Origin: Owenia fusiformis
Taxonomy: Eukaryota; Annelida; Polychaeta; Sabellida; Oweniidae
Length of the DNA: 64,000 nucleotides
Assembly: GCA_903813345.2 (NCBI GenBank)
Contig: CAIIXF020000004.1
Coordinates: 29,885,985-29,949,984, forward strand
Reading direction: 5' to 3'
Shown piece by piece: positions 24,842-62,503 of this stretch. The notes beneath the pieces are model-generated. The model did not search any database and had not been told where the DNA came from. It was given only the letters and a program-made list of their open reading frames with translations. Position 1 is the stretch's first letter. Each line of letters starts with the position of its first letter. The position numbers and the translations under genes are program-made.

Positions 24842-25005
24842 AAGGCCCAACAGACTAGTAATGAACCATCTGAAACACAATATTATGATAATGACACTTT
24901 TACTTGTAGGCCCACCAGACCAGTAATGAACTTTCTTAAACAAAGAATTATGATAATGACACTTATACATGTACTTATAGGCCCAACAGACTAGTAATGA
25001 ACCAT
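24842..25005 (+). repeat. Three-copy duplication of the ACSL exon 2 acceptor
   Basis: The exon 2 start (gcccaacagactagtaatga, true copy at 24981) is preceded by two similar copies at 24845 and 24910, each with the AG in place and separated by 65 and 71 bp. Between copies lies intronic sequence ending tatgataatgacactt. Each unit therefore contains about 25 bp of exon plus about 45 bp of intron. Confidence 0.85.
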
Positions 25006-25190
25006 CAGCACCATGGAGAGCTTTAGAGTCATTAGGGGAACTTGCAACAACAATCTCCCCTGACTGCAAAACGTTAGATGAACTATTCAAAAGAGCTGCT
25101 CAAATACACAGTGAATCTCCATGTTTAGGGACAAGGGAGGTACTAGCTGAAGAAGATGAAACTCAACCCAATGGGAAAGTTTTCAAAAAG
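24981..25190 (+). CDS. ACSL4: ACSL3/4 exon 2
   Basis: The acceptor is acttatag (ends 24980) and the donor aaaaag|gtaagc (25191). It is 210 bp, phase 0 to phase 0, encoding 70 residues: AQQTSNEPSAPWRALESLGE and onward through KTLDELFKRA and GTREVL to ETQPNGKVFKK. The last segment corresponds to the conserved MQPNGKVFKK of vertebrate ACSL4. Exon 1 precedes it after an 11.4 kb intron; exon 3 follows after 26.9 kb that hold the whole minus-strand receptor gene. Confidence 0.93.
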
Positions 25191-25799
25191 GTAAGCCATA
25201 TGTATGATATTTGAATTTAATTATTCTAGAACTATGAGCTCTCATTATACTTCAATGCTGATGTTTAAACATTATAATGTAAGAGAATATCTGAATGATA
25301 TACCACTACTATACCTGTATACTGTCATGTATATCTTCCATGTTTTTATGGCCTGTTAATCAACTATATGATCGTCTCACTAAAGTTTACATATTATATT
25401 ATAATTGAGAATATATTTTCTTTTGAAATTATATATTTAAGTAGAAGTTGGCTCCAAATTGTAGGAAATCCCAGTCTTGAACAAGAAAAACTCTTAGCTT
25501 TATTAGATTCTTTTGTTGGGGATATATGTAGGAAAACCCTCATATACAAACATACTTTTAATAAAAACTTCCAATTAAACTGAATACCTTTACCTTTTCT
25601 TTAATTACTTTGCTCTCTGCAACAGAAGATATGAATTGCAACATGGCAGGATGTGCGCTAAAATGAATATAAAGAATCATTTCCTTTGTCCAAAAGCATC
25701 TTTAACAAAAACGTACATGTGAAATGTAATATATATATATATAAATTATTCTTGTATTATGATCTTCCCAATTTGTACACTAAATTCACCAGAATTCCT
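25191..25799. other. Between ACSL exon 2 and the receptor 3' end
   Basis: AT-rich sequence with no recognisable feature; a short (at)n run lies near 25729-25745. Homology to the paralogous receptor segment at 47887 stops within about ten bases of the stop codon at 25800. Confidence 0.5.
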
Positions 25800-25960
25800 T
25801 TATTCCTTGCAGTTGAAACATTGATATTTACTCCCAGACACGACACATGCATCACATTTTGTGTATCCTTCATTCCTCATCAGTTGACACTCTGAACACT
25901 TTGTGACCAGTTTCTCCTTTCTATGTAACTTACATCTTTTACAGTAGTAGCCACATACAT
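25800..25960 (-). CDS. mGluR-like gene, exon 8 (terminal, cysteine-rich)
   Basis: The acceptor on the minus strand is tgctttag (to 25961). The split codon g|at gives Asp and the exon reads DVCGYYCKRCK, then KCSECQLM, CDACVVS and KYQCFNCKE, followed by TAA. Nine cysteines in about 50 residues resemble the start of the class C receptor cysteine-rich domain that follows PxSxC. The stop overlaps AATAAA (ggAATAAAgg), a candidate polyadenylation signal. No transmembrane sequence follows, so the protein ends without a seven-helix domain. Confidence 0.8.
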
Positions 25961-26082
25961 CTAAAGCACCATGATTAGATTTAATGCAAGTGAAGCGAAA
26001 TGGAACAAAATATGAGTGACTCAAGGCCTTACATACATGTATTCCAATATAAGTAAGCCCCCTGACCTCGCCTTGTACATAC

Positions 26083-26179
26083 CTGGACATTCAGACTGTG
26101 GCAAAAGGTCATAATAACCTTTTGGAAAATTATTATCATCTGCTTCAAAGGATTTACCATTGGAGCCTGAACTACCAAT
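26083..26179 (-). CDS. mGluR-like gene, exon 7
   Basis: Acceptor atttcag (to 26180), donor ccag|gtatgt. It is 97 bp, phase 0 to 1, encoding 32 residues: IGSSGSNGKSFEADDNNFPK then GYYDLLPQSECP. The final PxSxC corresponds to the end of the Venus-flytrap domain and the first cysteine of the linker in metabotropic glutamate receptors. A near-identical exon is at 48170-48266. Confidence 0.85.
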
Positions 26180-26337
26180 CTGAAATACAAATATTTTGTA
26201 AAAAAAAGAGAAAAGATATATTCATCAGCTGTTATATTCTTGATATTCGCTATTTGACATATATGTGTGGATTCATGCAATTTAAAATAATGAACATAGT
26301 ACACACCTGAGATATTCTACTAAACGTCAATGCTTTT

Positions 26338-27200
26338 TGTTATCCCACCGAACGAAGTTCGAGAGGGATATAGGAAAGCCGTCCGTCCGTCCGTCTGTCC
26401 GTCCGTCCGTTCGTCCGTCCGTCCGTCCGTCCATCCGCCTCCGACCCCGGTCAAAATGTGACCTGAGATGAATTTTAATATAATTTCAAAATTTGTAGCT
26501 TATATTTGTTATAAATTCATAACATGTTATAATTATCAATAAGGGTTCTATTCAATACAGAGTTCATTAATTTAGTAGCTAATTAAAAAAAATTGAGGTC
26601 ACATTAACCTTGGCAGTGGGGTAGGCGCGACTTGACACAAAACGACTTTCTAGCAGTCAGTTTTCAATGTAATCTATACCTCAAAACATGATTTTTTGGG
26701 TTATTTTAAAATAGCAATGAAGTTCTCAAAATTTGCCATGAAGATTTTAGGGTAAAACAGATTTTTCAAAAATATTAGTCAATAGTACATAGAATACTAC
26801 AGTATAATTTTGAACAAGTGACAAAAAAAGAAAACATTTTTTAAGTCAATGTTCTCTTGATCAAATCTCTCAAAAGTTGGTGAAAAGCTTTATTTTGGCT
26901 TATTAAATATACACTGTGAAACATGTTGAAATCTTTTTACTCAGATATGAATAAATTGATATTTTGTCCTTTTTCTCTAGGTCACATCTACCCCATGCGT
27001 CCACCATCATAAAAAATATTTGTTCATCAATAATATTTTCTTGTAATAGGTAGATGTGATAAATTCCTACATAAGAAAAGGATAAACACATTTATGTCAA
27101 GTATCTAGAGTACTTAATTTCAATATTTATTTTCAATACTTGTTTAAATATTATGTTTTGCCCCAAGTCGCACATACCCCAGCTCATGTAAAAATATGAA
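26338..27200. mobile_element. Dispersed repeat with (cgtc)n head
   Basis: It begins tatcccaccgaacgaagttc, then a tandem ccgtccgt tract (26381-26436), continuing to segments such as ggtcacatctacccca and caagtcgcacatacccc. The same vocabulary appears in the opposite orientation at 38260-38460. It has the look of a non-autonomous element common in invertebrate genomes; family not determined. Lies in receptor intron 6. Confidence 0.55.
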
Positions 27201-30200: not shown

Positions 30201-30516
30201 GTGAACAGGACTTTTTCCAATGACTCAAAACTGTTGCTCTTGAGAGGTAAAATAAATGGAATTTTGGGTTGATTCAGTAGCATGTAAACATATTTTTTAT
30301 TCTATTCTAACTCACATAACCATGCTGATGTATGCATTATGCAGAAAAAGGTATATTATTTCAACAATAATTTATGTACATTATAGTTGTCACATTTTTA
30401 ACATATTCTTGCAAGTAAAAAAAACAGGATGTTACATCTCTGAAGAATGAAAAATTGGGGAAAGGACCAATCTCGGTTTGGAGAATGAAGTTCATAGGCA
30501 TATTCTGATGTTATCA
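27201..30516. other. Receptor intron 6: mostly unique AT-rich sequence with minor elements
   Basis: 27410-27540 is a diverged member of the repeat family at 10920-11000. A MITE-like unit lies at 28289-28403 with inverted ends tacagggtgttc / ataacaccctgta. CACGTG-rich motifs (gtaagtcacgtgacttacc) recur at 28840-28925 and 29130. A 67-codon minus-strand frame (29108-28908) starts in good context (caaaATGG) and reads MDEISEEKEFEHNSYSQFRG, but ends inside the CACGTG motifs; it is not recognised and is listed only as possible. Confidence 0.45.
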
Positions 30517-30801
30517 ATGTCACCAACGATTTTGATTTTTTACATAGTGTAGATTGAAATATGATCTTTTGAATATGTAAGATTTAATTATGTTAATGTT
30601 TTTATTTCTTTCACAAAACAAATATTAGCTACCCCCCCCCCAATATTTCACTTGTTAAAGTCCCATTGACGATGTCATCTAGGAAAAATAATATTTTGTT
30701 TTATGAAAGCAATAAAAATATTACCATAATTAAATCTTAAATATTCAAAAGATCACATTTCAATCTACACTATGTAGAAAAATCAAAATTGTTGGCAACA
30801 T
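30517..30801. mobile_element. Palindromic MITE
   Basis: The left arm (acatagtgtagattgaaata, 30542 onward) is the inverse of the right arm ending near 30775 (ttcaatctacactatgtaga); arms of about 110 bp are separated by a C-run and unique sequence. No coding capacity. It is followed by an (at)n run at 30800-30826. Confidence 0.75.
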
Positions 30802-30839
30802 ATATATATATATATATATATATATTTTTTATCATGTAT

Positions 30840-33710
30840 ATATTTCTCATTTTATAACTTTGTATACATCAAGTCATTTTACAATATTTGTGAAAAATGA
30901 TACAATTTCAATTCTTGAACATTATTACAATAGTTTACAAATATAATGTACCATAAGTTGTTTAAACATTCATTAAAATAAGTATAGTTAGTTTCTTGTA
31001 CCTTATAGCCAAAAACAAGAGTTTTATACTTTTTCAAGCTTAATTCAATTTTAAAATGATCTAAAATATAATTTTCTAGTTGGTCTATTACATTAAGTAC
31101 TCTATGACATTGAAAGAACAAATGTTTATAATCTTCTACTTGTCCGCAAATATCACACATGTCATTAACACTTATTTTCCATCTTAGAAGTACATGTAAT
31201 TGTTTGCATGGTAAAATGTAATGTAAAAGTTTGTATTTAAAATTGGCCACTTTTTTTTTATTTTTGGATTGCTTTAAAAGTATCCAAGTCTGTTGAAACA
31301 GCATTTGACTATTTTGAATTTCACAAAGATTAATCCAAAATGATTCCAAATATGTTTTAGTTGCTATATGTTCCAACAAGATTGAATATATGTCTCTAGA
31401 ACTTGCATGTTTATCCAAAAGTCTATAATGCTTCAATTTACTGTCATAAAACCTTAAACTTACATTTGTATTCACATATGTACATCTGCTTGCCTCACTA
31501 AATATTTTAACTCTATATTGAAATGGCAAAGATTGCTTAACAGTTACATATTCTGCCATCTAATTGACCCTAGATTTAAGCTTATCAAGAATTTCATCTT
31601 GGGTACACATTAAATCATTAACATATAATATATTTGAATTTATCCAGTTTTCAAAATACAAATATTTGTTATTGTGCCAAATCACCATTTGTCTAATTTC
31701 TGCAAATGTTATGTTATGAATTTTGGATTCTGAGCCTCCAAGAATACTCCAAGCATGGAGTAAATCTTTGTAAAATTGTTCTGGTTTTCCATAAGTAGAT
31801 TTAAATATCAAAGTATCTGGGAGTCCAGTTTTACTTAATATCTCTCTTGCTAGAATATTCCAACTTGCGTTTTTATTCCCATACTCAATGTCTAATATCC
31901 ATTTAATCTTAAAGGCCCTGAATTTAGATTTTAAGTCAGGCATTGAGAGTCCACCTTTAGACCAAGTATTAATTAAGACAGATCTTTTAATTTTATCTCT
32001 TTTTCCATCCCACAGGAATGAATAAAGTTCTGAAGTAATTTCTTTCAAAAAAGTTTCATTTGGAGTGTCAATACATTTTGCTAAATACATCAGTTTAGAT
32101 AATGCATGTGTTTTAATTATAACTATTTTCCCATAAAGAGTTATCTTGCGTTTTTTCCACAAAGACAATGACTTTCTCATTTTATACTATTCCAATTAAG
32201 ATCATGCAATTTAGTTTGATCTATTCCAAAGTAGACGCCTAATGATTTTACTTCCTTTCCAGGAAATATTACAAAATGTAGTATTATTGTCATTTTTAAA
32301 GTTACCAAGTTTTATACCTTCTGTTTTTTCTAAGTTAAGCTCTAAACAAGAAACAGTTCCGAAACGCTGTATTTCTTTGATAGCTATATTAATAGAGTTT
32401 TTTCCATGAACAAAGAGAGTGGTGTCATCTGCAAGTTGACATATTTTGACTTCTTTGTTTCTTACTTTGATACCTTTGATTCTAGAATTATTTCTTATAT
32501 TGATTGCCATTGTTTCTGCCGCAATGAGATAAATCAAAGCAGAAATGGGACATCCCTGCCGAATGCCCCGAGATACATCAAAATATATTAGCTACACAGC
32601 TTTGTATTCCATTATACAAAGTTTTGATCCACTTAATAAAACTAGTACCAAAATTGAATTTCTTTAATGCTTCTAGAGTGAAGTCAATTTCCAAACAATC
32701 AAAACATTTTGAAAAATCTGCAAAAATAATAGCAGAATCTAATGTTTTTCTATATTTATTAGCATATTTGATTACGTCATTTATTAGCCTTATATTATAT
32801 CCAATAAATCTTGCTTTAATATAGCCCTGTTGATCTTGATTTATAATTAGTGGTAATATTTTATGAAGTCTCTGAGCTAAAATGTGGGCACATAATTTGT
32901 AGTCTACATTAAGCATAGTTAAGGGTCTCCGCAGTTACTTAATATTTGGTTATCATTTTTCTTATGTAACAACTTTATAATGCCTAGCTAATCTCTGAGA
33001 GAAAATTAATTGTCCTTTACTGTAACCATAATTTAAAACATCAGTTACCATTTTACCAATTAATGGCCAAAATGTTTGATAGAATTCAACAGTTAATCCA
33101 TCTTGCCCTGGAGATTAATTAAGCTTCATGCTAAAAATAGAATTTTCATAAGTAAGCCCTCCTTCACAGAGATCTGCTTCCTCTTTAGTTAATGCTCGTT
33201 TAATATTATAAATTATCTAAATAATTTTTGATTTTATCCTTTTGTATATTTTTTGAAGTATAAAGGGTTTTATAGAAATTCTCCTGCATTTGTAATATTT
33301 CGTTCTGATTACTAACTACAGTTCCATCAGGGTGTTTTAAATTATATATTGTTTGACTCTTCTGTTGGTGTTTTTTAAGGCCAAGGAAAAAATTTGTATT
33401 ACGTCCACCTTCCTCTATCCACTGTACACGTGACCGTATTTGGGCAGCTCAAGTAAAGTATTATAACGAAGTTGATATATATCATTTTCATCATAATTAC
33501 TAATCTTACTAAGTAAAAATTGTTTCAGTGTTTCACGTGTTTTTGCTTTATGCTTAGCATACTTGATAGATTCCTCCCTTATTTTTACTTTAAATACCTC
33601 CCATTGATCTCCACAGTCAAGAGAAACATCTGGCTGAGAAAATATATTAGTTGTAATAATATATTTTTGTCTTTAAGTAGACTATTGTTTAGTTTTTTTA
33701 GGAAATAAAG
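30840..33710 (-). mobile_element. 5'-truncated L1/Tx1-type LINE, ORF2 fragments
   Basis: On the minus strand, broken frames follow ORF2 order. 33700-33200 reads WIEEGGRNTNFFLGLKKHQQ (the endonuclease-RT linker). 33120-32950 reads SPGQDGLTVEFYQTFW. 32916-32578 covers RT motifs (DQQGYIKARF, IIFADFSKCFDCL). 32537-32211 holds the catalytic QLADDTTLF. 32180-31560 and 31559-30879 hold the C-terminal part with a CCHC-like CDICGQVEDYKHLFFQCH. The endonuclease and ORF1 are missing, and several frameshifts and stops break the frame, so it is dead. The 3' end merges into AT-repeats. Lies in receptor intron 6, same orientation as the receptor. Confidence 0.92.
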
Positions 33711-40289: not shown

Positions 40290-40372
40290 CTTCATTGGAG
40301 TTCCATCTTTTTTCCAGTAGAAGAAATTGTATGCATTGCCACTCTCTCTATTGAGTATGGTAACATTATGAC
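40290..40372 (-). CDS. mGluR-like gene, exon 6
   Basis: Acceptor aaattgcag (to 40373), donor atgaag|gtaata. It is 83 bp; the split codon g|gt gives Gly, then HNVTILNRESGNAYNFFYWK and KDGTPMK; phase 1 to 0. The pattern (G-x-[NY]-x-[VI]-x-N...YxYWK) matches the segment of metabotropic glutamate receptors near the end of the ligand-binding domain. The exon start is also the last copy of a 65-bp array extending upstream. Confidence 0.85.
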
Positions 40373-40790
40373 CTGCAATTTATAACATTTAAGGGAAGAT
40401 TTGCCACTCTCTCTATTGAGTATGGTAACATCATGACCTGCAATTTATAACATGTAAGGGAAGATTTGCCACTCTCTCTATTGAGTATGGTAACATCATG
40501 ACATGAATTTATAACATTTAAGGGAAGATTTGCCACTCTCTCTATTGAGTATGGTAACATTATGACCTGCAATTTATAACATTTAAGGGAAGATTTGCCA
40601 TTCTCTCTATTGAGTATGGTAACATCATGACCTGCAATTTATAACATGTAAGGGAAGATTTACCACTCTCTCTATTGAGTATGGTAAATCATGACCTGCA
40701 ATTTATAACATGTTAGGGAAGATTTGCCATTCTCTCTACTGTGTATTATGACCTGCATTTTATAACATGTAAGGGAAGATTTGCCTGACT
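40325..40790 (-). repeat. 65-bp array spanning the exon 6 acceptor, about 7 copies
   Basis: Each unit, on the minus strand, has about 28 bp of intron ending taaattgcag and about 37 bp of exon beginning gtcatgatgttaccatactc. The exon-contiguous copy (acceptor at 40373) is functional; further copies lie at 65-bp steps to 40790, with one acceptor mutated near 40502. The paralogous array at 49680-50168 has the same structure. Confidence 0.92.
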
Positions 40791-40990
40791 GTAACTATCT
40801 GCAGTGCCTAATAGTGACTAACATAATGATGTTAACATGAGCACATACTTCCAGTATGTTTTAAATTTCACTGTGTATGGCATAATTATTTGTTTTAATT
40901 TAGAACTGTATATAAATGTGTATACATTGTCCTGAACTGGGAAAGAATGATCTCTAAATCTTAATATGTGATAGATTCAAAAAATAGTAC

Positions 40991-41283
40991 CGTCAATATC
41001 CTTGAAAGACATATTTCCCAAAATGTCAGTGAAGTTTTTTCCAAATGCTGTGCCAAGTGCTTCACATACAGTTTTGGTTCCTTTCCCACATTTCTTTGTT
41101 AGTCTCTCAGTTGTAGCTATACTAAGAGCATATACTGCATGAATTGTCTGCAGTATGAAAGTGTCTTGGCTATAAGTTGGGAGTTCTGTTACAATCATGT
41201 CAGTTGTACAGTTGGTATTGCAATTGAACATAGCTTTGAAGTACATCTCAGTATGAACACTGCTGGCAGAAGGTTGACCAAAT
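40991..41283 (-). CDS. mGluR-like gene, exon 5
   Basis: Acceptor ctcccgcag (to 41284), donor gacg|gtacta. It is 293 bp, phase 2 to 1, encoding FGQPSASSVHTEMYFKAMFN, CNTNCTTDMI, TFILQTIHAVYALSIATTER and KCGKGTKTVCEALGTAFGKN. The 'A[VI][YH]A[LM]..A' helix followed by paired cysteines (C..G...VC) is characteristic of lobe 2 in class C receptors. Intron 5 (40373-40990) contains the exon 6 array. Confidence 0.88.
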
Positions 41284-41334
41284 CTGCGGGAGAATGAGAA
41301 GTCTATTGAAAGAAACTACATACATGTTTGTCCA

Positions 41335-44030
41335 ACCTAAGTTTTGACATGTTGGTATCAAATGCTTTGGAATTATCACCATATAATGCTATAGTTGTTG
41401 CCTACCTGAGTTTTTACATGTTTATATATCAAATGATTTGGCAGTTCCACCATATAAGGCTATAGTTGTTGCCTACCAAAGTTTTGACATGTGAATATAT
41501 CAAATGCTCTGACAGTATCACCACATAAGGATATAGTTGTTGCTTACCTGAGTTTTTACATGTGTATATATCAAATGATTTGGCAGTTCCACCATATAAG
41601 GCTATAGTTGCTGCCTACCAAAGTTTTGACATGTGAATATATCAAATGCTCTGACAGTATCACCATATAAGGCTATAGTTGTTGCCTACCTGAGTTTTGA
41701 CATATGTGTATCAAATGCTTTTACAGTATCCCCATATAAGGCTATAGTTGTTGCCTACCTGAGTTTTGACATATGTGTATCAAATGCTTTTACAGTATCA
41801 CCATATAAGGCTATAGTTGTTGCCTACCTGAGTTTTGACATAGTGTATCAAATGCTTCGCCAGTATCACCATATAAGGCTATAGTCGTTGCCTACCTAAG
41901 TTTTGACATATTTGTATTAAATGCTTTGACAGTTTCACCATATAAGGCTATAGTTGTTGCCTACCTGAGTTTTGACATATGTGTATCAAATGTCTCGACA
42001 GTATCACCATATAAGGCTATAGTTGTTGCCTACCTGAGTTTTGACATATGTGTATCAAATGCTTTGACAGTATCCCCATATAAGGCTATAGTTGTTGCCT
42101 ACCTGAGTTTTGACATATGTGTATCAAATGCTTTGACAGTATCACCATATAAGGCTTTAGTTGTTGCCTACCTGAGTTTTGACATATGTGTATCAAATGC
42201 TTTGACAGTATCACCATATAAGGCTATAGTTGTTGCCTACCTAAGTTTTGACATATGTGTATCAAATGCTTTTACAGTATCACCATATAAGGCTATAGTT
42301 GTTGCCTACCTAAGTTTTGACATAGTGTATCAAATGCTTTGACAGTATCCCCATATAAGGCTATAGTTGTTGCCTACCTGAGTTTTGACATATGTGTATC
42401 AAATGCTTTGACAGTATCCCCATATAAGGCTATAGTTGTTGCCTACCTGAGTTTTGACATATGTGTATCAAATGCTTTTACAGTATCCCCATATAAGGCT
42501 ATAGTCGTTGCCTACCTGAGTTTTGACATATGTGTATCAAATGCTTTGACAGTATCCCCATATAAGGCTATAGTTGTTGCCTACCTGAGTTTTGACATAT
42601 GTGTATCAAATGTCTCGACAGTATCACCATATAAGGCTATAGTCGTTGCCTACCTAAGTTTTGACATATGTGTATTAAATGCTTTGACAGTATCACCATA
42701 TAAGGCTATAGTTGTTGCCTACCTAAGTTTTGACATATGTGTATCAAATGTCTCGACAGTATCCCCATATAAGGCTATAGTCGTTGCCTACCTAAGTTTT
42801 GACATATGTGTATTAAATGCTTTGACAGTATCCCCATATAAGGCTATAGTTGTTGCCTACCTAAGTTTTGACATATGTGTATCAAATGTCTTGACAGTAT
42901 CACCATATAAGGCTATAGTCGTTGCCTACCTAAGTTTTGACATATGTGTATCAAATGCTTTGACAGTATCACCATATAAGGCTTTAGTTGTTGCCTACCT
43001 GAGTTTTGACATATGTGTATCAAATGCTTTGACAGTATCACCATATAAGGCTATAGTTGTTGCCTACCTAAGTTTTGACATATGTGTATCAAATGCTTTT
43101 ACAGTATCACCATATAAGGCTATAGTTGTTGCCTACCTAAGTTTTGACATAGTGTATCAAATGCTTTGACAGTATCCCCATATAAGGCTATAGTTGTTGC
43201 CTACCTGAGTTTTGACATATGTGTATCAAATGCTTTGACAGTATCCCCATATAAGGCTATAGTTGTTGCCTACCTGAGTTTTGACATATGTGTATCAAAT
43301 GCTTTTACAGTATCCCCATATAAGGCTATAGTCGTTGCCTACCTGAGTTTTGACATATGTGTATCAAATGCTTTGACAGTATCCCCATATAAGGCTATAG
43401 TTGTTGCCTACCTGAGTTTTGACATATGTGTATCAAATGTCTCGACAGTATCACCATATAAGGCTATAGTTGTTGCCTACCTGAGTTTTGACATATGTGC
43501 ATCAAATGCTTTGACAGTATCACCATATAAGGCTATAATTGTTGCCTACCTGAGTTTTGACATAGTGTATCAAATGCTTTGACAGTATCACCATATAAGG
43601 CTATAGTTGTTGCCTACCTGAGTTTTGACATATGTGTATCAAATGCTTTGACAGTATCACCATATAAGGCTATAGTTGTTGCCTACCTGAGTTTTGACAT
43701 ATGTGTATCAAATGCTTTGACAGTATCACCATATAAGGCTATAGTTGTTGCCTACCTGAGTTTTGACATATGTGTATCAAATGCTTTGACAGTATCCCCA
43801 TATAAGGCTATAGTTGTTGCCTACCTGAGTTTTGACATATGTGTATCAAATGCTTTGACAGTATCCCCATATAAGGCTATAGTTGTTGCCTACCTGAGTT
43901 TTGACATATGTGTATCAAATGCTTTGACAGTATCCCCATATAAGGCTATAGTTGTTGCCTACCTGAGTTTTGACATATGTGTATCAAATGCTTTGACAGT
44001 ATCCCCATATAAGGCTATTGTTATTGATCC
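41335..44030 (-). repeat. 69-bp array spanning the exon 4 donor, about 39 copies
   Basis: On the minus strand each unit holds about 55 bp of the exon 4 end (tatagccttatatggggata, then catatgtcaaaactcag) and about 14 bp of intron (gtaggcaacaact). The exon-contiguous donor is at 43962; the array then fills practically all of intron 4. Leftmost units (41335-41640) are most diverged. Unit length 69 leaves long open frames of a 23-residue periodic peptide on the + strand (to 276 codons), which are not genes. In the host frame, reading past the first donor gives CTC AGG TAG, a stop. Confidence 0.95.
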
Positions 44031-44128
44031 AGCTGCTGCTTTTTCAAAGCCATCAACCATGAACTCTGTTTTTCCCCATGTCTCTGTCCCAATGAATACC
44101 AGACCTGTAACGTTGAATTGCCATTTTA
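43963..44128 (-). CDS. mGluR-like gene, exon 4
   Basis: It encodes (phase 1 to 2) KWQFNVTGLVFIGTETWGKT, EFMVDGFEKAAAGSITIALY and GDTVKAFDTHMSKL up to donor ctcag|gtaggc. 'F.W[VI]G...W' and 'AGxITI' match lobe 2 of class C receptors. The start is inferred: the acceptor acaag|ta at 44129 keeps the phase (giving Leu) but has a weak pyrimidine tract; ataatag at 44149 would break the frame with the preceding exon. Confidence 0.8.
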
Positions 44129-44329
44129 CTTGTGCCATTTTGACCAACTATTATGTTAAAACATTAAGACATTAACCATATTGTTTCTCTCTTCAAACCT
44201 TGGAAAACAAACACTTGTTCTTTAAACAACATTAAACATCATAAAAAGACGAACTGTTTTTTAAAGGTAACCCCTTTAAATCTACAATTTCACAGTTGTA
44301 CATTTTGATTATTTCACAATTTTACTCAC

Positions 44330-44474
44330 GTTTGGCACTTATATCTTTCATAAACTTCTGCTTAGCTGCCAGTAATGGTTTAACGATTCCACCTCCCAAA
44401 ACTAAAACTATATCTGACTTCAAAGTACTTTCCATGATTTCTAAAATGATGTCCTCTTCGTTTGACTTAGTTTT
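44330..44474 (-). CDS. mGluR-like gene, exon 3
   Basis: Acceptor cattttag (to 44475), donor aaac|gtgagt. It is 145 bp, phase 0 to 1, encoding KTKSNEEDIILEIMESTLKS, DIVLVLGGGIVKPLLAAK and QKFMKDISAK. 'SDIVLVLGGG' fits the beta-strand that in mGluRs reads ARVVVLFMRS, followed by a helix. Confidence 0.82.
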
Positions 44475-44603
44475 CTAAAATGCAGGAATAATTCTTACTA
44501 AACAGTAATTCCTCAACATTGACTCTATTTTGCTTGAAAATAGTTGTAGGTTTAATGTAATTCATAGAATGGTGAGTAAAATTGAATAAACAAATGCACC
44601 TAC

Positions 44604-44780
44604 ATTAATAGTATGTGTGTCTGATTTCAGAATAAATGTGGATGATACACATCCTCCCTCTTTTTCAAATGTTTCTCTGAACAGCCTTGCCAAGTCTCTG
44701 GGATAAGTTAACTCATCTTCAATGACAATGTGCACATTCATCCAGCCATGACTAATCAACAGGGCTGCAAGAGCAGGGCC
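44604..44780 (-). CDS. mGluR-like gene, exon 2
   Basis: Acceptor atttgtag (to 44781). The donor is taken as aat|gtaggt (44603), because this gives phase 0 and joins exon 3 in frame; a competing aatgtag|gtgcat site four bases downstream does not. It encodes GPALAALLISHGWMNVHIVI, EDELTYPRDLARLFRETFEK and EGGCVSSTFILKSDTHTIN. The 'GW..V.[IV]....Y.......F...' pattern is the start of lobe 2. Confidence 0.82.
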
Positions 44781-45051
44781 CTACAAATGGAAACATTCAA
44801 AGGGTTTATTCTCGAAATGCATTCCTGTATTTGTTCATTTTCAACGCTCTTGTAATTCATGTAATTCACCTTTAATATAGTAATGAGGCGGAGCAATGCC
44901 TCTTGAAAATATGGTTCAAACTCAAAAAATAAAAAGCTCCATTAATTTCATTTTTACTTTTTTACCTCATGAGAATATCCTATTTTATGAAAAATTAAAA
45001 AGATTTCAAAATTTAGTTGTGTTTGAAATATAATGAATAGTGAAAGCTGAC

Positions 45052-45588
45052 CTGCATGTTATCTGATGGTAAAGTCCTCACAAAATATGGGAACCTAGTT
45101 CTGTCACTTAACTGTGGGCTTGTAGCCTGTGGTGCTACTAATACTGTCTTTGTAGTCTTCAAATATTCAGCAACTTTCATAGTTTTGTCACTGTTAGCAG
45201 AACCAACAAATCCAACAACTCGATCAGGGTTGATAAGGGCACCAGTTGAATCATTGACCAACAAAATACCTCCATAAAATTCTTTAGTTAAGTTCAGACC
45301 ACGATCAGCAGATGAACAGTCATCCATAATAATTGCTCCAATTTTGATACCAAGATCTGCAAATTGACCTTTATGCTTGTTAATTTCTGTTAGAGCCAGG
45401 TCAACTGCTTCCATATATTGGTAGCCATATATGTATCTTATGCCTTTACATCCTCCCCATGTAAGGCCCAGCATTACCACAATATACAAATCACCATCTA
45501 TTACAACATAGGTAGGATTAGGTTGGGGTGGGTCAGCAATGGTCATGGACAAAATTGTGACCAGTGAAGTGAGTACGTCTCTCCTCAT
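45052..45588 (-). CDS. mGluR-like Venus-flytrap receptor, exon 1 (predicted secreted, 552 aa overall)
   Basis: Starts at ATG 45588 with a hydrophobic leader (RRDVLTSLVTILSMTIA) suited to a signal peptide, then GDLYIVVMLGLTWGGC, YQYMEAVDLALTEINK, GAIIMDDCSSADRGLNLTKE, PDRVVGFVGSANSDKTMKVA and SPQLSDRTRFPYFVRTLPSD, up to donor atgcag|gtcagc (45051). This follows lobe 1 of metabotropic glutamate receptors: GDL...G..., EA..FA...IN, ILD.CS, V.GVIG, LSD..R..YF.RT.P.D. The eight exons join in a consistent phase to 552 codons plus stop (1659 bp). By family the protein should bind a small amino-acid-like ligand, but with no 7TM it would act outside the cell or as a decoy (inference). The whole gene lies inside ACSL intron 2 on the opposite strand. 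Confidence 0.85.
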
Positions 45589-46400: not shown

Positions 46401-46404
46401 ACCT

Positions 46405-47886: not shown

Positions 47887-48047
47887 TTATTCCTTGCAGT
47901 TGAAACATTGATATTTGCTCCCAGACACGACACATGCATCACATTTTGTGTATCCTTCATTCCTCATCAGTTGACACTCTGAACACTTTGTGACCAGTTT
48001 CTCCTTTCTACGTAGCTTACATCTTTTACAGTAGTAGCCACATACAT
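47887..48047 (-). CDS. Partial receptor duplicate, exon 8'
   Basis: Near-identical to 25800-25960: the same acceptor (tgctttag), the same cysteine pattern and the same TAA overlapping AATAAA. One visible residue change is H to R (CKRCKLRRKE). The intron to exon 7' is also conserved. Homology between the two copies ends a few bases past the stop. Confidence 0.75.
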
Positions 48048-48169
48048 CTAAAGCACCATGATTAGATTTAATGCAAGTGAAGCGAAATAGAACAAAATAT
48101 GAGTGACTCAAGGCCTTACATACATGTATTGCAATATAAGTAAGCCCCCTGACCTCGCCATGTACATAC

Positions 48170-48266
48170 CTGGACATTCAGACTGTGGCAAAAGGTCGTA
48201 ATAACCCATTGGAAATTTATTATCATCTGCTTCAAAGGATTTACCATCGGAGCCTGAGCTACCAAT
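48170..48266 (-). CDS. Partial receptor duplicate, exon 7'
   Basis: Reads IGSSGSDGKSFEADDNKFPM then GYYDLLPQSECP, differing from exon 7 by about three residues; same length (97 bp), phases and splice sites. Whether it is expressed is unknown, as no exon encoding a ligand-binding domain lies upstream in the window. Confidence 0.75.
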
Positions 48267-48674
48267 CTGAAACAGTGATATTTCCTTAAAAGCAGGTTGT
48301 AAATCTATGATTTACTTGAAATTATGTCACCACCAAAAAGTGGAGACATTGTTATGGTCTCCATTTTTTGTGATGGTGGTTGGTGTCTTGCAGTTGGCAT
48401 CTGTAACAAATTCTGACTTTAAATTTGAGATATGACCTTCAATTACCTCCTCAAGGTAAGAAATCTATAAGCTCTTTTTCAACTTACTTCAAATTGACTA
48501 AATTGTTTCATAAATCATCTACAAGTTCGCAGAAGTTCAAAACGTACTTTGGATTTGACATTTGACCTTTAATATCCTTCTCAAGTTCAAAAAAGGTCAT
48601 TTTTCAACTTGCTTCACATTGCCCATTTTTAATAGTTAATGCCTTGTATACTTATATACTTATTGACACATTCA

Positions 48675-49640: not shown

Positions 49641-49723
49641 CTTTATTGGAGTTCCATCTTCTTTCCAGTAGAAGAAATTGTATGCATTGCCACTCTCTCT
49701 ATTTAGTATGGTAACATCATGAC
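49641..49723 (-). CDS. Partial receptor duplicate, exon 6'
   Basis: 83 bp, acceptor aaattgcag (to 49724), donor ataaag|gtaaaa; reads HDVTILNRESGNAYNFFYWK and EDGTPIK, differing from exon 6 at three residues. Upstream of it on this strand (50170-52123) no Venus-flytrap exon exists, so the copy lacks exons 1-5 and is either a pseudogene or alternative 3' sequence of something outside the window. Confidence 0.75.
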
Positions 49724-50168
49724 CTGCAATTTATAACATGTAAGGGAAGATTTGCCACTCTCTCTATTGAGTATGGTAACATCATGACCTGCAATTTATA
49801 ACATGTAAGGGAAGATTTGCCACTCTCTCTATTTAGTATGGTAACATCTTGACCTGCAATTTATAACATGTTAGGGAAGATTTGCCACTCTCTCTATTTA
49901 GTATGGTAACATCATGACCTGCAATTTATAACATTTAAGGGAAGATTTGCCACTCTCTCTATTGAGTATGGTAACATCATGACCTGCAATTTATAACATT
50001 TAAGGGAAGATTTGCCACTCTCTCTATTTAGTATGGTAACATCATGACCTGCAATTTATAACATTTAAGGGAAGATTTGCCACTCTCTCTATTGAGTATG
50101 GTAACATCATGACCTGCAATTTATAACATGTAAGGGAAGATTTGCCACTCTCTCTATTGAGTATGGTA
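49680..50168 (-). repeat. 65-bp array spanning the exon 6' acceptor, 7 copies
   Basis: Same unit as at 40325-40790 (intronic ataaattgcag plus the exon 6 start). Acceptor copies lie at 65-bp steps from 49724 to 50114. Variants tattgagtatgg / tatttagtatgg alternate irregularly. Presence in both paralogues means the array, or the tendency to form it, is as old as the duplication. Confidence 0.92.
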
Positions 50169-51200: not shown

Positions 51201-52336
<1,136 letters not shown>

Positions 52337-52464
52337 TAAATAGAAAAATATAATAACAAACAGTTTATAAAAAATTCTCAAGTAGGTATGAAAATGATAT
52401 CCCTCAAGTAGGTATGAAAGTGATATCCCTGTTCTTACTTGTTGTCTCATCAAATAATGTTTGA

Positions 52465-53459: not shown

Positions 53460-54402
53460 GTCTATGTTTAATAACATTGTAGTTGTGACCACGTATGCAA
53501 CTCTCGGAGAAGATGCTGTATTATAACTTATGTTTGCTTACATTGTAGTTGTGGCCCTGTATGGGACTCTCTGAGAAGATGCTGTATTAGAACTTATGTT
53601 TGCTTACATTGTAGTTGTGACTCTCGGAGAAGATGCTGTATTATAACTTATGTTTGCTTACATTGTAGTTGTGGCCCTGTATGTGACTCTCGAAGATGCT
53701 GTATTATAACTTATGTTTGCTTACATTGTAGTTGTGACTCTCGGAAAAGATGCTATATTTTAACTTATGTTTGCTTATATTGTAGTTGTGGCCCTGTATG
53801 GGACTCTCTGAGAAGATGCTGTATTAGAACTTATGTTTGCTTACATTGTAGTTTTGACTCTCGGAAAAGATGCTATATTTTAACTTATGTTTGCTTATAT
53901 TGTAGTTGTGATCCTGTATGTGACTCTCGGAGAAGATGCTATATTATAACTTATGTTTGCTTACATTGTAGTTGTGACCCTGTATGTGACTCTCGGAGAA
54001 GATGTTATATTATAACTTATGTTTGCTTACATTGTAGTTGTGACCCTGTATGCGACACACGCAGAAGATGCTATATTATAACTTATGTTTGCTTACATTG
54101 TAGTTGTGACCCTGTATGCGACACACGCAGAAGATGCTATATTATAACTTATGTTTGCTTACATTGTAGTTGTGACCCTGTATGCGACACACGCAGAAGA
54201 TGCTATATTATAACTTATGTTTGCTTACATTGTAGTTGTGACCCTGTATGCGACACACGCAGAAGATGCTATATTATAACTTATGTTTGCTTACATTGTA
54301 GTTGTGACCCTGTATGCGACACACGCAGAAGATGCTATATTATAACTTATGTTTGCTTACATTGTAGTTGTGACCCTGTATGCTACACTTGGAGAAGATG
54401 CC
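53460..54402 (+). repeat. 66-bp array spanning the ACSL exon 4 acceptor, about 15 copies
   Basis: Units contain the acceptor (tttgcttacattgtag), about 34 bp of exon start (ttgtgaccctgtatgcgaca + cacgcagaagatgc) and about 18 bp of intron. Acceptors occur from 53482 to 54367. The five units before the true exon are homogeneous and share 'gcgacacacgcag' where the exon has 'gctacacttggag', so they spread from one variant; upstream units are more diverged and of unequal length. Confidence 0.93.
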
Positions 54403-54474
54403 ATAATCCATGGGGTCAATGAATCAGAAGTTACACATCTAATAACTAGTAATGAACTCATAGAAAAATTTAAG
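54368..54474 (+). CDS. ACSL4: ACSL3/4 exon 4
   Basis: Acceptor acattgtag (ends 54367), donor tttaag|gttagt. It is 107 bp, phase 1 to 0: V then [20 protein letters not shown] and [15 protein letters not shown]. It matches the [14 protein letters not shown][ST]E segment of ACSL3/4. Its acceptor is the last of about 15 tandem copies. Confidence 0.95.
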
Positions 54475-54649
54475 GTTAGTGGATTAAGATGCAGTTATCA
54501 GTTAGCTGGACAAACTTTTGATATATTTGCATTGGGATTTGTGATTCATGTTCATCTATAGGCCTATGTGCTTGTCTATTTGTATTTTGAACTTGGCTTG
54601 TATGTAAACCCTAAATTACAAATGTCTCCATTTAGAAAAAAATATTCTA

Positions 54650-54805
54650 CAATGAAGACAATTGACATTTCTCCCTTTATCAATTGACCATCCTCCCTTT
54701 AAACAATTGACCATCCTCCCTTTAAATTGACATTTCTCCCTTTATCAATTGTCCATCCTCCCTTTAATCAATTGACCATCCTCCCTTTAATCAATTGTTT
54801 TTAAG
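54650..54805. repeat. About 24-bp minisatellite in ACSL intron 4
   Basis: Six units of tcaattgaccatcctccctt + taaa, some with attgacatttctccctttat. A pyrimidine-rich run; no junction included. Confidence 0.85.
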
Positions 54806-54974
54806 AATGATTAAGAACACAGTCTATTGAAAGCCCATGACTTTATCAAAGCATATTCTGTACCCATACTACCACTAATAGTTGAATGGTAGCAGTTTCC
54901 TTTTTAAAGGCCCCATGTAAAGTTTAAACCACTTTGGCTTATATTGTAGTCTTACCCAATGTTATCAAAGTGTG

Positions 54975-55730: not shown

Positions 55731-55784
55731 CGGGGACTTTAAGGAAATCAAATTTACTAATCATAAAATCCTTTTCTTTTCTAG

Positions 55785-55929
55785 AAAATTCTCCCACAAA
55801 TGCCGAATGTTGAACATATCATATACTTCGACTATGGTCTCAATAAGCCAGATGTTAGTGGCTTTCCTGAAAATGTCAAATTACATTCCATGTCCAGAGT
55901 AGAAGAACTGGGCTCACGTGCAGAAAATA
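55785..55929 (+). CDS. ACSL4: ACSL3/4 exon 5
   Basis: Acceptor ttttcttttctag (ends 55784), donor aaata|gtaagt. It is 145 bp, phase 0 to 1: KILPQMPNVEHIIYFDYGLN, KPDVSGFPENVKLHSMSRVE and ELGSRAEN. It matches the V.HIIY.D ... F...IHSM..VEELG segment of the family. Neither border is duplicated. Confidence 0.94.
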
Positions 55930-56019
55930 GTAAGTACATTAAAAAGCTTTCAAATTTCATAATAATAGACAAACTCGATAGCAAATGTCACTGCCTTACT
56001 TGATTTCTGTTATTTGCAG

Positions 56020-56100
56020 AGAGTGTAGTACCACAGAAGCCAACCAGGGATGACCTTGCAGTTATAATGTATACGAGTGGTTCCACTGGAATGCCTAAAG
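56020..56100 (+). CDS. ACSL4: ACSL3/4 exon 6 (AMP-binding motif)
   Basis: Acceptor ttatttgcag (ends 56019), donor taaag|gttggt. It is 81 bp: K (split codon), SVVPQKPTRDDLAVIMYTSG, STGMPK. YTSGSTGMPKG is the phosphate-binding signature of the ANL (acyl/aryl-CoA synthetase) superfamily; its last Gly is encoded across the junction with exon 7. Phase 1 to 1. Confidence 0.95.
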
Positions 56101-56199
56101 GTTGGTCTATGTATAGTACTCTGTAATCTTAAGCATTTTACATTTCCCATAATGCAATAGATTTCAGCAGACAGTGTGGTTGCTAGGCAATAGTAATTA

Positions 56200-59100
56200 T
56201 ATAATATGAAATACTTTCAAGTGTTAGGATTGGTCATGGTAACTTGTGTTTTATTGTTGGACAGATTCATGTTTCTGATAATGCAATAGATTTCAGCAGA
56301 CAGCAGTGTGGTTGCTAGGCAATTGTATTTATATTATATGAATTTATTTCTAGGTGTTGTGATTAGCCATGGCAACTTGATGTGTGGCATGGTAGTTGTA
56401 TTTATATTATATGAATTTATTTCCAGGTGTTATGATTAGCCATGGCAACTTGATGTGTGGCATGGCAATTGTATTTATATTATATGAATTTATTTCCAGG
56501 TGTTATGATTAGCCATGGCAACCTGATGTGTGGCATGGTAGTTGTATTTATATTATATGAATTTATTTCCAGGTGTTATGATCAGCCATGGCAACTTGAT
56601 GTGTGGTATGGCAATTGTTTTTATATTATATGAATTTATTTCTAGGTGTTATGATTAGCCATGGCAACTTGATGTGTGGCATGGTAGTTGTATTTATATT
56701 ATATGAATTTATTTCCAGGTGTTATGATTAGCCATGGCAACCTGATGTGTGGCATGGCAATTGTATTTATATTATATGAATTTATTTCCAGGTGTTATGA
56801 TTAGCCATGGCAACCTGATGTGTGGCATGGTAGTTGTATTTATATTATATGAATTTATTTCCAGGTGTTATGATTAGCCATGGCAACCTGATGTGTGGCA
56901 TGGTAATTGTTTTTATATTATATGAATTTATTTCTAGGTGTTATGATTAGCCATGGCAACTTGATGTGTGGCATGGCAATTGTATTTATATTATATGAAT
57001 TTATTTCCAGGTGTAATGATTAGCCATGGCAACCTGATGTGTGGCATGGCAATTGTATTTATATTATATGAATTTATTTCTAGGTGTTATGATTAGCCAT
57101 GGCAACCTGATGTGTGGCATGGTAGTTGTATTTATATTATATGAATTTATTTCCAGGTGTTATGATTAGCCATGGCAACTTGATGTGTGGCATGGTAGTT
57201 GTATTTATATTATATGAATTTATTTCCAGGTGTTATGATTAGCCATGGCAACCTGATGTGTGGCATGGCAATTGTATTTATATTATATGAATTTATTTCC
57301 AGGTGTTATGATTAGCCATGGCAACCTGATGTGTGGCATGGTAGTTGTATTTATATTATATGAATTTATTTCCAGGTGTTATGATTAGCCATGGCAACCT
57401 GATGTGTGGCATGGTAATTGTTTTTATATTATATGAATTTATTTCTAGGTGTTATGATTAGCCATGGCAACTTGATGTGTGGCATGGCAATTGTATTTAT
57501 ATTATATGAATTTATTTCTAGGTGTTGTGATTAGCCATGGCAACTTGATGTGTGGCATGGTAGTTGTATTTATATTATATGAATTTATTTCCAGGTGTTA
57601 TGATTAGCCATGGCAACTTGATGTGTGGCATGGCAATTGTATTTATATTGTATGAATTTATTTCCAGGTGTTATGATTAGCCATGGCAACTTGATGTGTG
57701 GCATGGCAATTGTATTTATATTGTATGAATTTATTTCCAGGTGTTATGATTAGCCATGGCAACCTGATGTGGGGCATGGTAATTGTTTTTATATTATATG
57801 AATTTATTTCTAGGTGTTATGATTAGCCATGGCAACTTGATGTGTGGCATGGTAGTTGTATTTATATTATATGAATTTATTTCTAGGTGTTATGATTAGC
57901 CATGGCAACCTGATGTGGGGCATGGCAATTGTTTTTATATTATATGAATTTATTTCTAGGTGTTATGATTAGCCATGGCAACTTGATGTGTGGCATGGTA
58001 GTTGTATTTATATTATATGAATTTATTTCTAGGTGTTATGATCAGCCATGGCAACTTGATGTGTGGCATGGCAATTGTATTTATATTATATGAATTTATT
58101 TCCAGGTGTTATGATTAGCTATGGCAACCTGATGTGTGGCATGGTAGTTGTATTTATATTATATGAATTTATTTCTAGGTGTTATGATCAGCCATGGCAA
58201 CTTGATGTGTGGCATGGTAGTTGTATTTATATTATATGAATTTATTTCTAGGTGTTATGATTAGCTATGGCAACCTGATGTGTGGCATGGTAGTTGTATT
58301 TATATTATATGAATTTATTTCCAGGTGTTATGATTAGCCATGGCAACTTGATGTGTGGCATGGCAATTGTATTTATATTATATGAATTTATTTCCAGGTG
58401 TTATGATTAGCTATGGCAACCTGATGTGTGGCATGGTAGTTGTATTTATATTATATGAATTTATTTCCAGGTGTTATGATTAGCCATGGCAACTTGATGT
58501 GTGGCATGGCAATTGTATTTATATTATATGAATTTATTTCTAGGTGTTATGATTAGCCATGGCAACCTGATGTGTGGCATGGTAGTTGTATTTATATTAT
58601 ATGAATTTATTTCCAGGTGTTATGATTAGCCATGGCAACTTGATGTGTGGCATGGCAATTGTATTTATATTGAATGAATTTATTTCCAGGTGTTATGATT
58701 AGCCATGGCAACTTGATGTGTGGCATGGCAATTGTATTTATATTGTATGAATTTATTTCCAGGTGTTATGATTAGCCATGGCAACCTGATGTGGGGCATG
58801 GCAATTGTTTTTATATTATATGAATTTATTTCTAGGTGTTATGATTAGCCATGGCAACTTGATGTGTGGTATGGTAGTTGTATTTATATTATATGAATTT
58901 ATTTCTAGGTGTTATGATCAGCCATGGCAACTTGATGTGTGGCATGGTAGTTGTATTTATATTATATGAATTTATTTCTAGGTGTTATGATTAGCCATGG
59001 CAACCTGATGTGTGGCATGGTAGTTGTATTTATATTATATGAATTTATTTCTAGGTGTTATGATTAGCCATGGCAACTTGATGTGTGGCATGGTAGTTGT

Positions 59101-59531
59101 ATTTATATTATATGAATTTATTTCTAGGTGTTATGATTAGCCATGGCAACCTGATGTGTGGCATGGTAGTTGTATTTATATTATATGAATTTATTTCTAG
59201 GTGTTATGATTAGCCATGGCAACCTGATGTGTGGCATGGTAGTTGTATTTATATTATATGAATTTATTTCTAGGTGTTATGATCAGCCATGGCAACTTGA
59301 TGTGTGGCATGGTAGTTGTATTTATATTATATGAATTTATTTCTAGGTGTTATGATTAGCCATGGCAACTTGATGTGTGGCATGGTAGTTGTATTTATAT
59401 TATATGAATTTATTTCTAGGTGTTATGATCAGCCATGGCAACTTGATGTGTGGCATGGTAGTTGTATTTATATTATATGAATTTATTTCTAGGTGTTATG
59501 ATTAGCCATGGCAACCTGATGTGTGGCATGG
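56200..59531 (+). repeat. 73-bp array spanning the ACSL exon 7 acceptor, 44 copies
   Basis: Units hold the acceptor (tgaatttatttctag or tccag), 39 bp of exon start (gtgttatgattagccatggc, aacctgatgtgtggcatgg) and 34 bp of intron (ttgtatttatattatatgaa + tttatttctag). Copies run from 56354 to 59493, exactly 43 intervals of 73 bp, so no length variants survive. Substitutions (c/t in ttt(c/t)(c/t)ag, ggcatggtag/ggcatggcaa, cttg/cctg) occur in patterned blocks. A much older copy is visible at 56220-56260 (gtgttaggattggtcatggt). The array is almost the whole of intron 6. Confidence 0.96.
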
Positions 59532-59562
59532 CTGGACAATGTTCAAGAATTCCAAAACTAGG
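59493..59562 (+). CDS. ACSL4: ACSL3/4 exon 7
   Basis: Acceptor tttatttctag (ends 59492), donor ctagg|gtaagt. It is 70 bp, phase 1 to 2: G (split), VMISHGNLMCGMAGQCSRIP, KL. It corresponds to KGVMM.H.NL..GM.GQC.RIP.LG of ACSL4. The exon is intact only at the last copy of the 73-bp array. Intron 7 (59563-59902) has C-rich runs (ccctccccctacccccta) and nothing else recognised. Confidence 0.95.
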
Positions 59563-59902
59563 GTAAGTCCAAATATTTATTGCAGTATTACAACTACATC
59601 AATTGTTAAGTGGTTTAATAGATATATATTTGCTATAATATTAGCTAATGCAAGAAAAGAGCCACATGGTTTGAACTGATATGATGATTGGTTGAAGATA
59701 ATGAAGATAATTTCATTCTGGTTTAACCCTCCCTCCCCCTACCCCCTAACATTAACCCTCCCTACCCTACCCCCTAACAAAATCTGAAATCTTATTCTCC
59801 ACTAATGGAAGTGTCATTTACAACCTTCCCCTTATGAAATTAACTTTGTTCATCGCTAAAAAATCACAAAATTTGATTAATAATGTTTATTTTATTTTCC
59901 AG

Positions 59903-59964
59903 ACAAATGGCAGACACCTATATTGGATACCTTCCTCTTGCTCATGTCTTAGAATTAAGCGCAG
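59903..59964 (+). CDS. ACSL4: ACSL3/4 exon 8
   Basis: Acceptor ttttattttccag (ends 59902), donor gcgcag|gtatga (59965). It is 62 bp, phase 2 to 1: G (split), QMADTYIGYLPLAHVLELSA. It matches the DTYIGYLPLAHVLEL.A motif that follows RIP.LG in ACSL3/4. Its donor is the first of about 35 tandem copies. Using any later donor would read A-G-M-I-stop, so the first must be used for an intact protein. Confidence 0.95.
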
Positions 59965-62503
59965 GTATGATATAATACATACATTAAATTGGATACCTTC
60001 CTCTTGCTCATGTCTTAGAACTAAGCGCAGGTATGATATAATACATACATTAAATTGGATACCTTCCTCTTGCTCATGTCTTAGAATTAAGCGCAGGTAT
60101 GATATAATACATACATTAAATGGGATACCTTCCTCTTGCTCATGTCTTAGAATTAAGCGCAGGTATGATATAATACATACATTAAATTGGATACCTTCCT
60201 CTTGCTCATGTCTTAGAATTAAGCGCAGGTATGGTATAATACATACATTAAATTGGATACCTTCCTCTTGCTCATGTCTTAGAATTAAGCGCAGGTATGA
60301 TATAATACATACATTAAATTGGATACCTTCCTCTTGCTCATATCTTAGAATTAAGCGCAGGTATGATATAATACATACATTAAATGGGATACCTTCCTCT
60401 TGCTCATGTCTTAGAATTAAGCGCAGGTATGATATAATACATACATTAAATTGGATACCTTCCTCTTGCTCATGTCTTAGAATTAAGTGCAGGTATGATA
60501 TAATACATACATTAAATTGGATACCTTCCTCTTGCTCATGTCTTAGAATTAAGCGCAGGTATGGTATAATACATACATTAAATTGGATAGCTTCCTCTTG
60601 CTCATGTCTTAGAATTAGCGCAGGTATGATATAATACATACATCAAATTGGATACCTTCCTCTTGCTCATGTCTTAGAATTAAGCGCAGGTATGGTATAA
60701 TACATACATTAAATTGGATACCTTCCTCTTGCTCATGTCTTAGAATTAAGCGCAGGTATGATATAATACATACATTAAATTGGATACCTTCCTCTTGCTC
60801 ATGTCTTAGAATTAAGCGCAGGTATGATATAATACATACATTAAATGGGATACCTTCCTCTTGCTCATGTCTTAGAATTAAGCGCAGGTATGATATAATA
60901 CATACATTAAATTGGATACCTTCCTCTTGCTCATGTCTTAGAATTAAGCGCAGGTATGGTATAATACATACATTAAATTGGATACCTTCCTCTTGCTCAT
61001 GTCTTAGAATTAAGCGCAGGTATGATATAATACATACATTAAATTGGATACCTTCCTCTTGCTCATGTCTTAGAATTAAGCGCAGGTATGATATAATACA
61101 TACATTAAATGGGATACCTTCCTCTTGCTCATGTCTTAGAATTAAGCGCAGGTATGATATAATACATACATTAAATTGGATACCTTCCTCTTGCTCATGT
61201 CTTAGAATTAAGCGCAGGTATGATATAATACATACATTAAATTGGATACCTTCCTCTTGCTCATGTCTTAGAATTAAGCGCAGGTATGGTATAATACATA
61301 CATTAAATTGGATACCTTCCTCTTGCTCATGTCTTAGAATTAAGCGCAGGTATGATATAATACATACATCAAATTGGATACCTTCCTCTTGCTCATGTCT
61401 TAGAATTAAGCGCAGGTATGGTATAATACATACATTAAATTGGATACCTTCCTCTTGCTCATATCTTAGAATTAAGCGCAGGTATGGTATAATACATATA
61501 TTAAATTGGATACCTTCCTCTTGCTCATGTCTTAGAATTAAGCGCAGGTATGGTATAATACATACATTAAATTGGATACCTTCCTCTTGCTCATGTCTTA
61601 GAATTAAGCGCAGGTATGATATAATACATACATTAAATTGGATACCTTCCTCTTGCTCATGTCTTAGAATTAAGCGCAGGTATGGTATAATACATACATT
61701 AAATTGGATACCTTCCTCTTGCTCATGTCTTAGAATTAAGCGCCGGTATGATATAATACATACATTAAATTGGATACCTTCCTCTTGCTCATGTCTTAGA
61801 ACTAAGCGCAGGTATGATATAATACATACATTAAATTGGATACTTTCCTCTTGCTCATGTCTTAGAATTAAGCGCAGGTATGATATAATACGTACATTAA
61901 ATTGGATATCTTCCTCTTGCTCATGTCTTAGAATTAAGCGAAGGTATGATATAAAACATACATTAAATTGGATACCTTCCTCTTGCTCATGTCTTAGAAT
62001 TAAGCGCAGGTATGGTATAATACATACATTAAATTGGATACCTTCCTCTTGAAAATAGATGGCGTTCATAGAACAGTGACTTGTACATTTTTGAGCGAGG
62101 AAAGATCCACTATATTGAGAATATAAACATTCGTAGTGCAAATTTTCTGAGCAGTTGTGGATTATAAACGTTCTTAGCACAAAACCAAACCATTGGATTA
62201 CGAGATAATCATGTGTACGGCGCAAAAACCGATCACAAACTTTTTTCATGAAAATTCTTTGAGCACTGAAAAACAACATACATTAAATGGGATACCTTCC
62301 TCTTGCTCATGTCTTAGAATTAAGCGCCGGTATGATATAATACATACATTAAATTGGATACCTTCCTCTTGCTCATGTCTTAGAACTAAGCGCAGGTATG
62401 ATATAAAACATACATTAAATTGGATACCTTCCTCTTGCTCATGTTTTAGAATTAAGCGCAGGTCTGGTATAATACATACATTAAATTGGATACCTTCCTC
62501 TTG
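59922..62503 (+). repeat. 66-bp array spanning the ACSL exon 8 donor, about 35 copies
   Basis: Each unit holds 43 bp of the exon end (attggataccttcctcttgc, tcatgtcttagaattaagcg, cag) and 23 bp of intron (gtatgatataatacatacat, taa). Donors lie at 66-bp steps from 59964 to 62009 (one 1-bp deletion near 60614), and three more at 62330-62465, two with altered sites (gcgccg|gt, gcgcag|gtctgg). The block is interrupted at 62052-62273 by a duplicated LINE 5' end. Because 66 is divisible by three, both strands carry long open frames (to 554 codons on the minus strand) encoding only a 22-residue periodic peptide; these are not genes. Confidence 0.96.
62052..62279 (+). mobile_element. Captured copy of a LINE 5' end inside the exon 8 array
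   Basis: The sequence aaaatagatggcgttcatag through gagcactgaaaaacaa (about 222 bp) is repeated exactly at 62504-62727 at a period of 452 bp. After the first copy the exon 8 array resumes for three units; after the second the LINE continues into ORF1. It is therefore a tandem duplication of [LINE 5' end + array units], made after the LINE inserted. Confidence 0.9.

Follow-up and report, generated by a model that had tools for sequence, protein, structure and literature searches.

A 64,000-nucleotide stretch of the genome of the annelid Owenia fusiformis (contig CAIIXF020000004.1, positions 29,885,985 to 29,949,984; hereafter the window, numbered from its first letter) carries eight tandem arrays that each straddle an exon–intron border, in two genes on opposite strands and in a paralogous copy of one exon. 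Tandem Repeats Finder (TRF) and direct reading of the window sequence located all eight where a preliminary description, made from the same letters, had placed them, and bore out its account of the repeat unit (i.e., exon edge, splice site and adjacent intron) and of acceptors and donors both being affected. These arrays are probably minisatellites of the type known as 'mirages' from amphioxus, i.e., products of frequent repeat turnover that would be tolerated at exon borders as exon definition ignores the decoy splice sites within them. Moreover, sampling of further genes indicates that such border-crossing arrays are not rare in the Owenia genome.

The exon borders carrying the eight arrays are genuine, as both genes give open frames through their exon-contiguous splice sites only. 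Exons 2–8 of the plus-strand gene (24981–25190, 52124–52301, 54368–54474, 55785–55929, 56020–56100, 59493–59562 and 59903–59964) join into an open frame of 284 aa that matches Pfam AMP-binding (E 1.6e-48). We presume this gene to be ACSL (long-chain acyl-CoA synthetase-like), a name taken from the preliminary description; the Pfam match itself gives the AMP-binding family only. Exons 1–6 of the minus-strand gene, of the ANF_receptor type (40290–45588; hereafter the receptor gene), join into an open frame of 459 aa (Pfam ANF_receptor, E 6.9e-38). The opposite orientation of the two genes was as originally described, with the correction that the receptor gene sits inside the ACSL gene, between exons 2 and 3 of the latter. 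No extra intron was found inside the arrays of these two genes, the native exons of both joining in frame without one.

Junction copies within the arrays were placed by motif search. On the plus strand, the acceptor of ACSL exon 2 lies in a short array at 24839–25006 (about three units of ca. 65–71 bp; 3 junction copies), that of exon 3 in an array of 75- and 93-bp units at 51239–52185 (11 junction copies), that of exon 4 in one of 54–66-bp units at 53463–54405 (15 copies), and that of exon 7 in one of 73-bp units at 56323–59531 (44 copies). The array at the donor of ACSL exon 8 (whose native copy with the true donor is at 59903–59964) extends over 59922–62503 with 66-bp units and 35 junction copies, and is reported by TRF as two pieces (59922–62051 and 62276–62503) on either side of unrelated sequence (about 62052–62275) that breaks the array and truncates one copy. 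A piece of this array and the insert are themselves duplicated at 62051–62728 (two copies with a 452-bp period according to TRF), and a 361-aa open frame follows the array at 62630–63715, with no Pfam match for the part of it at 62720–63712. ACSL exons 5 and 6 (55785–56100) are free of arrays by TRF, in agreement with the preliminary description.

On the minus strand, the donor of receptor exon 4 (native exon 43963–44104) is repeated in 38–39 units of 69 bp at 41335–44026, with 38 junction copies, and the acceptor of receptor exon 6 (native exon 40290–40372) in about seven units of 65 bp at 40336–40785, where the 5 junctions matched by motif are a lower bound given the ca. 7 units found by TRF. 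The paralogous exon 6' has an acceptor array of 65-bp units at 49687–50168 (7 junction copies). By eye, the receptor gene's 3' exons are present twice on the minus strand (25800–26178 and 47890–48268), and exons 6 and 6' are likewise doubled, which amounts to a partial gene duplication that took the border array along.

One part of the preliminary description had to be revised, i.e., that the arrays start exactly at exon edges. Instead, the units straddle the border, with an exon part of 26–64 nt in the eight arrays of the window and of 4–139 nt across the 32 arrays measured in this genome. Every motif-matched junction copy of the window arrays has its AG or GT intact; by eye, at least one copy in the receptor exon 6 array that was not matched by the motif is without its AG. 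In the five window arrays that were aligned, mean identity among copies was 81–97%, and 19 of 44, 12 of 32, 22 of 38, 11 of 15 and 8 of 11 units were distinct.

The consequences of using a decoy were assessed for 148 decoys, i.e., the matched copies of seven window arrays (ACSL exon 2 was left out). Using a decoy in place of the native site yielded an open-frame (in-frame and stop-free) insertion in 0 of the 148 cases, as anticipated by the claim that only the exon-contiguous site keeps the frame. When scored with a splice-site matrix that was set by hand and not trained on the Owenia genome, 131/148 decoys equalled or exceeded the native site and 38/148 exceeded it. Since most decoys are as strong as the native site, site strength cannot be what picks the latter, whereas position can.

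The preliminary description had proposed a genome-wide count of border-crossing arrays, and this count was run on a sample of 255 exon matches from the same 498-Mb genome. Sample 1 comprised 128 exon matches in CCT (PF00118) and myosin (PF00063) genes over 197 kb, i.e., 128 of 152 rows (60 for PF00118 and 92 for PF00063); the other 24 lay outside the chosen regions and included 11 repeated myosin exons on C9. (At C9:37986009–37994334, beside a muscle myosin gene, 12 successive matches to myosin head model positions ~18–84 are spaced hundreds of bases apart, an arrangement suggestive of a large group of alternative exons.) Sample 2 comprised 127 kinesin exon matches (PF00225) with 250 bp of flank on each side, out of 144 rows of which the other 17 were copies of one C2 array that was counted once. 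DEAD, PF00003 and PF00501 rows were left out of the counting. An array was counted as crossing at a period of at least 20, a TRF score of at least 100 and an overlap of at least 5 bp, criteria that were noted before sample 2; the period and score thresholds had been chosen after sample 1 was seen and were then kept.

In sample 1, 11 of 44 arrays crossed a junction and all 11 were genuine by eye, and in sample 2 the rule gave 14 of 23, of which 13 were genuine; the array removed (L074) was a simple repeat overlapping an overshot match. Together, the two samples hold 67 tandem arrays, of which 24 cross a real splice junction (donors and acceptors both being affected) and 43 do not; a crossing array was present in 25 of the 255 exon blocks. 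Wholly exonic arrays were near-absent, with none in sample 1 and one in sample 2 at these thresholds (two in sample 2 at the loosest setting). Crossing arrays were found, for instance, at a CCT donor (L009; ~20 copies of a 53-bp unit), at a CCT acceptor (L006; 83-bp unit) and at a kinesin acceptor at C2:23266359–23269174 (L126, L085), where a 159-bp unit that includes ~127 nt of exon edge has 18 near-identical matched copies.

Among the 32 arrays measured, 22 affect acceptors and 10 donors, and the unit period is 28–159 bp in 31 and 260 bp in one, with the caveats that for one array TRF gives alternative periods of 29 and 124 bp and that ACSL exon 2 is represented by 68 bp, a value between its spacings. 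The exon part of one array (KIN_h) was mis-measured by script as 83 and is ~127 by eye. Unit length shows no frame preference, the period modulo 3 being flat (12/10/10). In acceptor units the intron part is concentrated at 22–46 nt (13/22; P=0.0025 against a uniform distribution, and P=0.048 with a lower limit of 15 nt imposed), a weak clustering, noted post hoc, that is compatible with the 3' splice site having to be complete.

A simple scenario probably accounts for these arrays. A tandem duplication would by chance take in an exon edge together with its splice site, and this border duplication would then grow by ordinary repeat turnover. Exon definition pairs an exon's own two sites, and decoys, which hold a truncated piece of exon and lie at a greater distance from the partner site on the other side of the exon, would be passed over. 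The splicing machinery would thus keep to the exon-contiguous copy alone, and border arrays would be tolerated because only that copy is still used in splicing. Selection would purge arrays that lie wholly inside coding exons, while intronic arrays would be neutral and border arrays nearly so. The decoys themselves would likewise be neutral, which fits the flat period modulo 3 and the loss of GT, seen by eye, from some decoys of degenerate arrays (L004 946–1200 and the 28-bp array of L009). The scenario is further supported by the matching anatomy of arrays in unrelated genes (11 crossing arrays in CCT and myosin genes and 13 in kinesin genes), by the predominance of non-crossing arrays (43 of 67) and by the near-absence of wholly exonic ones.

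Several points weigh against this reading. Native-site use is deduced from the reading frames. Moreover, the founder nulls, in which each array was collapsed to one unit and placed randomly in its region with wholly exonic placements barred, give a junction excess of 1.6- to 1.9-fold that would not be expected if turnover were neutral and duplication uniform. The crossing effect also survives adjustment for guanine-plus-cytosine (GC) content (odds ratio 2.7, vs. 3.2 without GC), although this adjustment was made before edge correction and leaves the residual effect uncertain, and non-crossing arrays no more than 60 bp from an exon are not enriched (10 vs. 10.2 expected).

The founder-null excess and the near-exon result both speak for the foremost alternative, which we consider possible but unlikely: the duplication mechanism itself would favor splice junctions, for example through R-loops or through breaks linked to transcription or splicing, and arrays would form more frequently at borders than within introns. 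The founder null gave 24 of 67 crossing arrays against 12.5 expected (1.9-fold, P=2e-4), with pooled ratios of 2.0–2.5 by rule across thresholds and a gene bootstrap of the uncorrected ratio of 1.46–2.35. Since short windows hide non-crossing arrays, and uncorrected founder nulls thereby favor crossing ones, the null was corrected for edges, and the corrected figure is the one to trust: 24 observed vs. 15.0 expected (1.6-fold, P=0.002; ratio 1.8 and P=0.0003 with the smallest TRF period). This excess rests mainly on sample 1 (11/44 vs. 5.1 expected, P=0.006), as sample 2 alone gave 13/23 vs. 9.9 expected (P=0.10).

The excess claimed in the preliminary description is thus recovered with the founder nulls, but it disappears when exon masks are slid under the full-length arrays (24 observed vs. 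22.9 expected; 22 vs. 18.6 for the 57 arrays shorter than 600 bp, P=0.18). We judge the latter null too harsh because the outer limits of an array are set by its first duplication. Furthermore, arrays favor GC-rich DNA and border windows are richer in GC (0.367 vs. 0.334 elsewhere), and this preference accounts for part of the excess. The excess appears modest and depends on the null chosen. The stronger proposition, i.e., that junctions in this lineage are true amplification hotspots driven by transcription or splicing, that about one in ten coding exons carries decoys of functional strength, and that exon definition is the sole safeguard of readability, we likewise consider possible but unlikely.

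Another alternative holds that the decoys serve splicing or its regulation, via competition, splicing delay or alternative isoforms. Their strength relative to the native sites and the intact splice dinucleotide in all motif-matched copies of seven window arrays speak for such a function. However, the core dinucleotides are not alone in being invariant, as so are 40–82% of the columns in the five aligned arrays, and in arrays homogenised to this extent intact dinucleotides are expected. (Column-wise diversity was also tried as a measure of decoy constraint and dropped, as intron-side vs. exon-side diversity was inconsistent across the five arrays.) The motif search, moreover, favors intact copies, as the receptor exon 6 copy without AG illustrates, and neither the lack of frame preference in the period nor the GT-less decoys of degenerate arrays are what a function would call for. 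The splicing role suggested in the preliminary description is therefore unsupported, and we regard it as very improbable. Least credible of all is an origin of the arrays in assembly errors: assembling large tandem arrays is difficult and exact copy numbers may be wrong, but units differ within an array, similar arrays recur in many genes and the frames through the native sites are intact.

Tandem repeats spanning exon–intron borders were named mirages in amphioxus, where the parts of the reports on this subject describe them in Adh3, troponin C and the globins BflGb6 and BflGb9, with similar repeats in PGBD5 (PMC3087553, PMC3902484). There, units of 10–160 bp affect both 5' and 3' exon borders, show length polymorphism and somatic instability, are suggested to leave splicing undisturbed and are proposed as a route to intron gain (PMC3087553, PMC3902484). 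The Owenia arrays resemble them in having a unit that spans the boundary (32 arrays with the native junction inside the array), in minisatellite-sized units and in hitting both border types. As far as these accounts go, the amphioxus cases involve a few cephalochordate genes and no more than 6 units in the globin case, whereas the annelid has up to 44 copies, several affected borders per gene and about one tenth of sampled exons involved. The kind is thus already published, and Owenia adds a new member on a larger scale than in those reports. As would be expected of a spiralian, a muscle myosin fragment of this genome is closest to scallop and squid chains in the PDB (584–598 bits), ahead of the top vertebrate chain (553 bits); a spiralian microRNA pattern (miR-1992) was looked for and not found.

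Introns are also said to be gained by tandem genomic duplication, reportedly by the Rogers-type duplication of AGGT and in the case of potato RdRp. As in that process, the segment duplicated in Owenia includes splice signals; unlike it, no new intron is seen in the two window genes, whose native exon structure is kept. In human segmental duplications, internal tandem repeats touch exon–intron boundaries as minisatellite expansions, and in the portion of that study concerned about half of the variable ones alter coding sequence and some create introns (PMC2812944), whereas the Owenia decoys examined are unreadable in frame. The nearest spiralian case is an earthworm metallothionein with exon-4 duplications that are missing from the transcript and are not, in the relevant part of the report, described as an exon-border array (PMC12783039). 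No border-array case from a spiralian was recognised among the matches listed in a full-text search of the open-licence literature.

Elsewhere in the window, near-identical open frames on opposite strands at 5721–6095 and 6865–7245 form a long inverted repeat that may be a fold-back element, and minus-strand open frames at 30879–32934 resemble, by eye, pieces of the reverse transcriptase of a non-LTR (long terminal repeat) retrotransposon.

Finally, splice-site choice by exon definition is put to a natural test on a large scale by genes with up to 43 decoys as strong as the true site, each of them frame-breaking if used. Should the sampled rate hold genome-wide, thousands of exons would carry border arrays. 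Such arrays would be expected to hamper gene prediction, orthology searches based on exons and assembly from short reads in this genome. Under the model proposed from amphioxus, as far as its published outline goes, such border arrays would also be raw material for intron gain.

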